Below, piece after piece: positions 981-2,195 of a DNA stretch of 16,667 nucleotides. Under the pieces are notes generated by a model. The model had not been told where the DNA came from, did not search any database, and saw nothing but the letters and a program-made list of their open reading frames with translations. A program made the translations under genes and the position numbers. Positions within the stretch are counted from its first letter, which is position 1. Every line of letters begins with the position of its first letter. This DNA comes from an uncultured Bacilli bacterium. Lineage in GTDB: Bacteria > Bacillota_I > Bacilli_A > RF39 > UBA660. The stretch covers positions 1 to 16,667 of the forward strand of contig CANQUW010000012.1 in the NCBI GenBank assembly GCA_947627145.1, read 5' to 3'.

Positions 981-1619
981 TCAGTTTTCTTCAAGTAATC
1001 TAACACACTTTACATCATTATCAACCAATTTAGAAAAACTTTCTCCATCAGTAATTCTACCAACTATACTTCCGTAATGTGTAGGAACTACTATTTTAGG
1101 TTTAAGTTTATTTATAAAAATACTAGCTTCTTTATAATCCATAGTATAAACTCCACCAATTGGAACAAATGCTACATCACAATCAATACTTTCATTCTCT
1201 ATCAAACCATCCGTATCTCCTGCAATATAATAAGTAACTCCATTAATTATTACAACATATCCACACCATCCATTTTCTTTAGGATGAAAAGGTTTATCTA
1301 CATTGTATGAAGAAACAGTATTAAATCTTAAACTATCTATTTCATAACTTTCATTTGGAACAACTAATATCATATTATCATCATCAAAACCCAAATCATT
1401 TACTTTTTCTTTCAAAAGTCTAGGAACAATAATTTTAGTATTATCCTTTCTTACTTTAAAAATAGAATCTGGATCAAAATGATCATAATGATCATGTGTA
1501 ATAAATATATAATCAGCATCATGAAAATTTTTATCTATTTTAAATGGATCAAAATATACTTTAATATTTTTATCTATCTTTATACTACTTTGTGTAAAAA
1601 CATAAACATTATCTAACAT
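981..1619 (-). CDS. MBL-fold metallo-hydrolase
   Basis: Metallo-beta-lactamase-fold hydrolase of 212 residues, probably cytoplasmic because no signal peptide is seen. The metal-binding motif T-H-D-H-Y-D-H is at residues 41-47, with ligands H42, H44, D46 and H47. A bridging Asp is seen in AGDTD (D135) and a late His in PTHYG (H181). The compact size and the AGDTD motif fit the UlaG/YtkL-like branch of small single-domain hydrolases; the natural substrate cannot be told from sequence. The reading frame stays open up to 1691, but the start at 1619 is chosen because AGGAGAG stands about 7 bases before it and the family fold begins there. The longer form would add a 24-residue hydrophobic extension without a ribosome site and would overlap the gene upstream. 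It has its own candidate promoter. Confidence 0.9.
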   Translation of the reverse strand: MLDNVYVFTQSSIKIDKNIKVYFDPFKIDKNFHDADYIFITHDHYDHFDPDSIFKVRKDNTKIIVPRLLKEKVNDLGFDDDNMILVVPNESYEIDSLRFNTVSSYNVDKPFHPKENGWCGYVVIINGVTYYIAGDTDGLIENESIDCDVAFVPIGGVYTMDYKEASIFINKLKPKIVVPTHYGSIVGRITDGESFSKLVDNDVKCVRLLEEN

Positions 1620-1668: not shown

Positions 1669-1699
1669 GAAAAAGAGAAAAGCTTTAACACTTTTTCTC
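1665..1699 (-). terminator. Rho-independent terminator of the GreA-like gene, with the stop codon in its loop
   Basis: On the minus strand, GAGAAAAAG (1691-1699) pairs with CTTTTCTC (1675-1682) with one bulged A. The tail TTTTTCTTTA follows. The TAA stop of the GreA-like C-terminal half (1685-1687) lies in the loop. Confidence 0.65.
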
Positions 1700-1903
1700 A
1701 ACTATTTTTACATTTATCAAATTACCATGAACTTGATAGCTTACCTCATCCCCTATTTTCTTTTTATAAATCGCCTTACCTAGTGGACTATTAAGAGATA
1801 TCTCTAATACCGATGAATCCTCGTTTGGCATATACTTTCCAGTTAATTTAACAATTTCTTTATCACTTGACCCATCACTATAAGTAAATAATAATTCTAT
1901 CAA
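1685..1903 (-). CDS. GreA/GreB-like C-terminal domain (downstream half of a frameshifted gene)
   Basis: This reading frame carries the C-terminal globular domain of a GreA/GreB-type transcript cleavage factor, the part that docks on RNA polymerase. The segment EISLNSPLGKAIYKKKIGDE (residues 34-53 from the TTG) matches the family's NSPLGKAL-GKKxGDE core and ends in VKIVEK as GreA does. The frame is open upstream to 1966, and the residues read there (KVVNDKKHIDKVNIDDL) continue the domain naturally. The TTG at 1903 is only the first conventional start codon and has no good ribosome site, so independent translation is doubtful. The coiled-coil half lies in the -1 related frame just upstream (1945-2163). 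One extra A in the A5 run at 1957-1961 would join them into 159 residues, the normal GreA length. It is either a disrupted gene, a sequencing error or a recoding event. Confidence 0.75.
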   Translation of the reverse strand: MIELLFTYSDGSSDKEIVKLTGKYMPNEDSSVLEISLNSPLGKAIYKKKIGDEVSYQVHGNLINVKIVEKKC

Positions 1904-1944
1904 ATCATCTATATTAACTTTATCAATATGTTTCTTATCATTTA

Positions 1945-2163
1945 CTACCTTAAGTGTTTTTCTAAATCAAGCATATTTTTAATTTTTTGTGCTACACTTC
2001 TTTCTTCTCTCATAGCTTCTTCATAAGCAAAATTATCATGCCATCCATCACCACAAGTATCACTAAAAACATCACTACTAGAAGAGGAAGTAAGAGAATG
2101 TTTTAACTCATTAAGTATATCATGAAATTGCCTGTAACCTTCTTCATCTACAAGTATCTCCAT
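1945..2163 (-). CDS. GreA-like N-terminal coiled-coil domain (upstream half of a frameshifted gene)
   Basis: This 72-residue frame holds the N-terminal coiled coil of a GreA-like factor, the part that enters the RNA polymerase secondary channel and supports cleavage of backtracked RNA. The helical hairpin runs from about residue 6 to 24 and from 45 to 70. The turn is GDGWHDNFAYEEAMREE (38-54), standing where typical GreA has GD-L-S/K-E-N-AEY; D39 and D43 are the candidate catalytic acids. The start at 2163 is preceded by AGGTGG at about 7 bases. An upstream in-frame GTG at 2214 lacks a ribosome site. The frame stops at TAG 1945, only a few codons after an A5 run (1957-1961) where a -1 shift would enter the C-terminal domain frame. 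The promoter is just upstream. Confidence 0.75.
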   Translation of the reverse strand: MEILVDEEGYRQFHDILNELKHSLTSSSSSDVFSDTCGDGWHDNFAYEEAMREERSVAQKIKNMLDLEKHLR

Positions 2164-2170
2164 ATTATAA

Positions 2171-2195
2171 CCACCTACCTTTATCACTGCGGTGG
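2171..2195 (-). promoter_or_regulatory. Leader hairpin that could cover the ribosome site of the GreA-like gene
   Basis: In the minus-strand leader, CCACC (2191-2195) can pair with GGTGG (2171-2175), which is the ribosome binding sequence for the ATG at 2163. The stem is 5 bp, four of them G-C, with a 15-base loop. In such AT-rich DNA this is notable, but a 5-bp stem may be chance. Confidence 0.3.

Follow-up and report, generated by a model that had tools for sequence, protein, structure and literature searches.

The window (the whole stretch of DNA analysed, 16,667 nucleotides from an uncultured Bacilli bacterium) carries on its minus strand a Gre-type gene that is written in two overlapping frames, with a hydrolase gene on one side and a tRNA gene on the other. 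The features considered here are the following.

1945..2163, minus strand: upstream frame of 72 amino acids, holding the coiled-coil half of a Gre-type protein with a WHDN tip, from an ATG at 2163 to a TAG at 1947-1945 (ORF list, alignment with kin)
1685..1966, minus strand: downstream frame, one step away, the C-terminal polymerase-docking-type half, 93 open codons ending in TAA (PF01272)
1948..1953, minus strand: stretch in which the frame shifts relative to kin (codon alignment with 31 loci; DNA alignment with loci L075 and L076)
1957..1961, minus strand: run of five A singled out by a preliminary description of this DNA, lying 5' of the frame change (DNA and codon alignments)
2164..2180, minus strand: ribosome-binding-type sequence before the ATG, AAAGGTAGGTGG, read by eye
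981..1619, minus strand: intact metallo-beta-lactamase-fold hydrolase (PF13483, E 1.5e-19), which adjoins an intact Gre gene in genomes G150 and G254
2694-2768, same strand as the Gre gene and upstream of it: tRNA-Cys, anticodon GCA (Rfam, ARAGORN)

The frames at 1945-2163 and 1685-1966 together make up one Gre-type protein, each encoding one half, as the preliminary description had proposed and as is borne out by the frames themselves, by PF01272 and by the alignments with kin. In the Pfam scan, the downstream half matched PF01272 (GreA_GreB C-terminal domain) with an E value of 2.1e-9 and 37.6 bits, the cut-off being 26.9. The upstream half alone matched no Gre model in Pfam, PF03449 included, and aligned along its whole length with the N half of the full-length proteins P0001-P0003; both halves aligned with intact proteins of 158-159 amino acids. 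In the window's other minus-strand ORFs, 19 in number, the adjacent frame was open for 35 codons at most, and for at least 87 codons at 0 of 3258 codon positions. The two pieces are thus sensibly read as halves of one gene and not as a product of chance. The second frame is indeed open upstream to 1966 and overlaps the first, with both frames open simultaneously from 1966 to 1948, and it was also rightly stated that the downstream half has no good start of its own: its only start is a TTG at 1903, where no ribosome site was seen by eye. As written, the window copy does not hold the coiled coil and the C-terminal domain in a single chain, the stop at 1947-1945 lying between them.

As judged from its sequence, the gene is not an ordinary GreA; it is a Gre paralog that has diverged and carries a WHDN tip. 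It had been described as GreA-type, which stands insofar as the downstream half is Gre-type (PF01272) and fails for a standard GreA: five full-length kin gave no match to PF03449 (Gre N-domain) at E <= 0.1, and the best scores of the kin against the NCBIfam GreA model NF001263 were 54.5-59.4 bits versus a cut-off of 145. Canonical GreA was rejected as an identity on both counts. PF01272 was above its cut-off in P0001, P0002, P0003, P0010 and P0018 as well as in the window's downstream half. The tip in kin reads GDGWHDN or similar, and its W, H, D and N are invariant in all 16 proteins aligned, these being the 20 protein matches less P0008, P0009 and P0015 (excluded as short) and P0013 (excluded for its odd start). 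The predicted model of P0001 has helices at 7-26 and 45-68 and gave a fold match; judging by this model, the intact kin join an N-terminal coiled coil to a C-terminal FKBP-like GreA_GreB domain in one chain. The tip of the model has a pLDDT of <50, so that the placement of its acids is tentative. A canonical Gre N domain was found in 9 of 11 kin genomes, and the WHDN Gre paralog is patchily distributed, alongside a canonical Gre gene in most kin genomes tested. A literature search on WHDN together with GreA found nothing.

In the orthologs examined the gene is in one piece. The closest three of the 20 protein matches (P0001-P0003) are single proteins of 159, 159 and 158 amino acids, each 82% identical to the window's downstream half. 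Among 385 genomes from the order, 32 gave a match at E <= 1e-15, with none of 35 rows showing an internal stop; in the family of G254 matches were found in 20 of 386 genomes, with 21 of 21 rows likewise uninterrupted. The two genome sets overlap and together comprise 35 genomes with a match, of which 31 were re-read as DNA (G008, G011, G393 and G475 were left out, as were second copies in G049, G347 and G418). All 31 loci re-read were single ORFs of 158-181 amino acids; one of them, L088, is without the WHDN tip. The WHDN paralog (L075-L119) is present twice in each of G049, G347 and G418. In G150 and G254 the intact gene adjoins the same hydrolase and lies close to other genes of the window. 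The DnaE proteins of these two genomes are 77% identical to that of the window, compared with 47-51% in four genomes outside that genus, and G150, G254 and G302 probably belong to the window's genus. In G302 (DnaE 76%), the third genome of that genus, neither the Gre gene (E <= 1e-9) nor the hydrolase (E <= 1e-20) was found, which may reflect loss or an incomplete assembly. As far as the alignments reach, the frame shift is not conserved among the orthologs examined.

The preliminary description had placed the shift at the run of five A at 1957-1961, whereas the alignments place the change at 1948-1953. In the protein alignment, P0001 and P0002 read E-K-H-L-K-I-V-N-D-K-K and P0003 reads E-K-Y-L-K-I-V-N-D-K-K; the first frame of the window gives E-K-H-L-R and then a stop, and its second frame gives L-K-V-V-N-D-K-K. 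The window agrees with kin in the first frame up to the codons CAC TTA, so that CAC (His) still belongs to the first frame and the change falls within 1948-1953. A shift inside the A run would be expected to put Thr in the His column, which has Thr in 0 and His in 5 of 34 aligned rows (the 31 loci and P0001-P0003). Furthermore, when the DNA is aligned with L075 and L076, no gap is needed across the A run, and one opens only 3' of it. A break inside the run was therefore ruled out by the protein, codon and DNA alignments together. A run of at least five A is present in 1522 of 14534 (10.5%) equal-sized stretches of 19 bases in the window's other minus-strand ORFs, and in the window, with a GC content of 26.8%, runs of this length or more number 85 for A and 120 for T. 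The break site at 1948-1953 itself is no homopolymer.

The expression signals had been described as intact, which holds for the ribosome site; AGGTG-type sites also precede the genes of L075 and L076. For the promoter and terminator the scan does not support the description. A promoter scan of 1600-2300 on both strands gave 7 sites, compared with 4.2 +/- 1.6 in shuffled sequences, so that promoter-like sites are near their chance number, and no terminator was found in a scan of 1600-2300; a weak A/U hairpin (-8.4 kcal/mol, z -1.6) overlaps the stop codon. The hydrolase ORF as listed (981-1691) has as its start a GTG overlapping the stop codon of the Gre gene. P0023, the single match from the same species in a hydrolase search, is 99% identical and comes from a contig of 1763 bases; it begins at the ATG at 1619, and the search brought up no second allele of the Gre gene. 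The window hydrolase is 86% identical to P0024, which is probably a neighbour of P0002, because the longest contig of each has 1871 bases. Rfam and ARAGORN found nothing in the window beyond the tRNA-Cys. A phage origin has no support: a phage collection gave no near match to the window, and a viral scan gave one distant relative at 24% identity.

A split is observed, at an observed place relative to kin, and the kin examined are intact. It is very likely that this split is either a break in the strain or a sequence error, the two taken together, and a true mutation of this strain is the reading that we favour, with a probability of about 0.5. According to this reading, a frame break at 1948-1953, recent and not conserved, would interrupt the gene of a divergent Gre-type factor of the RNA polymerase secondary channel that has a WHDN tip, and the DNA as written would yield the coiled coil as a stub of 72 residues, with no polymerase-docking domain. 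Lacking that domain, the window copy is not expected to act as a Gre-type factor, its function has presumably been lost, and the basic role is probably covered by another, canonical GreA of the same genome. The intact near-kin orthologs at the same locus in G150 and G254 fit a recent pseudogene as well as a sequence error. Long decay was rejected as unproven: the downstream half is open across 93 codons, though slightly more diverged than intact pairs are, and it has kept the family motifs. In this half the window is identical to P0001, P0002 and P0003 at 74, 74 and 73 of 88 residues (82, 77 and 77 for pairs of the intact proteins), and in the upstream half at 67, 62 and 65 of 71 (63, 68 and 62 for intact pairs); residues altered in the window alone number 6 among the 88 of the downstream half and 2 among the 71 of the upstream half. 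The downstream half would be at most slightly loosened, the numbers being too small to argue from. This divergence may argue weakly against an error in the record. Conversely, the downstream half is still a stop-free conserved domain, as an error would leave it, which counts against a true mutation. That the organism's gene is intact and the break is present only in the record is possible, and such an error would fit the intact gene of the closest kin, the open, domain-like downstream half and the internal stop of DnaE in 2 of the 7 kin genomes that have a DnaE match, which indicates that interruptions do occur in such assemblies. Of these matches, G196:C10:18404-21313 is interrupted by a single TAG and G335:C27:552-3488 by a single TAA, and as the gene is expected to be essential, the interruptions are perhaps assembly errors. 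On the other hand, the break is at no long homopolymer, which counts against a typical homopolymer read error, and no further split gene was noticed in 16.7 kb. The window's other 20 ORFs are tightly packed and none is listed as split, and those seven of the scanned core genes that matched a full family (MltG, RuvX, IreB, RluA-family, LspA, DnaE and the hydrolase) are near full length, which argues against a generally poor assembly.

Besides mutation and error, the preliminary description had rightly listed recoding as a rival, by which the full-length protein would arise when the ribosome slips by -1 on A_AAA or the polymerase slips within the A run. The sequence TTA GAA AAA CAC does contain an A_AAA tetramer, single-tRNA slips can be supported by Z_ZZN tetramers according to PMC5009743, and a slip at the A run would reach the second frame, as both frames are open from 1966 to 1948. 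However, no in-phase X_XXY_YYZ heptamer was seen by eye, the predicted folding of the RNA downstream does not surpass that of shuffled sequences (z -1.04), a run of five is short and, as noted above, common by chance, and the actual frame change lies 3' of it. According to PMC5574713, transcript insertions in E. coli and Buchnera rise exponentially with run length, and PMC6149199 reports that T7 polymerase, unlike the E. coli enzyme, slips strongly on runs of 3-4. Recoding would have gained support had orthologs shared the shift; with 31 of 31 loci in a single frame, conserved recoding is rejected because the orthologs are intact, and recoding of any kind is very unlikely. A programmed -1 frameshift gene was rejected as well, as the shift is not conserved in the orthologs examined and neither an in-phase slippery heptamer nor a downstream structure beyond chance was found. 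It is very unlikely that a leaky -1 slip of the ribosome or the polymerase at the upstream A_AAA, inside the short overlap of the two open frames, partly rescues the break, in which case a little full-length WHDN-type Gre factor would be made together with an excess of the 72-residue stub, and the stub might also enter the polymerase's secondary channel on its own. Least likely of all is that the halves are two separate genes by design, made as two polypeptides. In its favour, P0008, P0009 and P0015 among the 20 protein matches consist of the C half only, and P0021, from a search with the N half, is an N half with a different tail. All four are on short contigs and may be further interrupted Gre paralogs or effects of gene calling. 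That search, restricted to candidates of <=126 amino acids, gave two matches, one apparently cut short and the other P0021, and no second copy of the window's split. Against two separate genes stand the TTG at 1903 as sole start of the downstream half, with no ribosome site by eye, and the fused state of all 31 loci read.

On balance, a recent break of the gene or an error in the sequence is the most likely explanation, ahead of a novel mode of decoding, and the locus drops out as a possible example of conserved recoding. In a genome of 27% GC, a short stretch of A close to a break says little in favour of slippage. A by-product is the recognition of the WHDN-tip Gre paralog, which is divergent and patchy in its distribution. 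If the rescue by a leaky slip were true, the locus would offer a natural example in which the dose of a transcription factor is set by a leaky frame change.

When compared with known systems, the window copy shares with frameshift pseudogenes and metagenome indel errors a one-step change, intact kin and gene-like halves, and no feature that distinguishes it from these was seen. With genes rescued by slippage (Buchnera-type A runs, 'savior' indels), it shares an AT-rich genome and a short A run near the break, whereas its run is only five long, the break is downstream of the run, and the arrangement is not conserved. In contrast to the GreA/GreB transcript cleavage factors (PF03449 and PF01272), the five full-length kin have no PF03449 match, the best NCBIfam GreA scores stay below the cut-off, the tip is WHDN, and the window copy is split. 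Gfh1 of Thermus is an inhibitory Gre paralog; sequence identity to it is about 20%, and the tip residues of the kin differ from those of Gfh1 as far as they are aligned.
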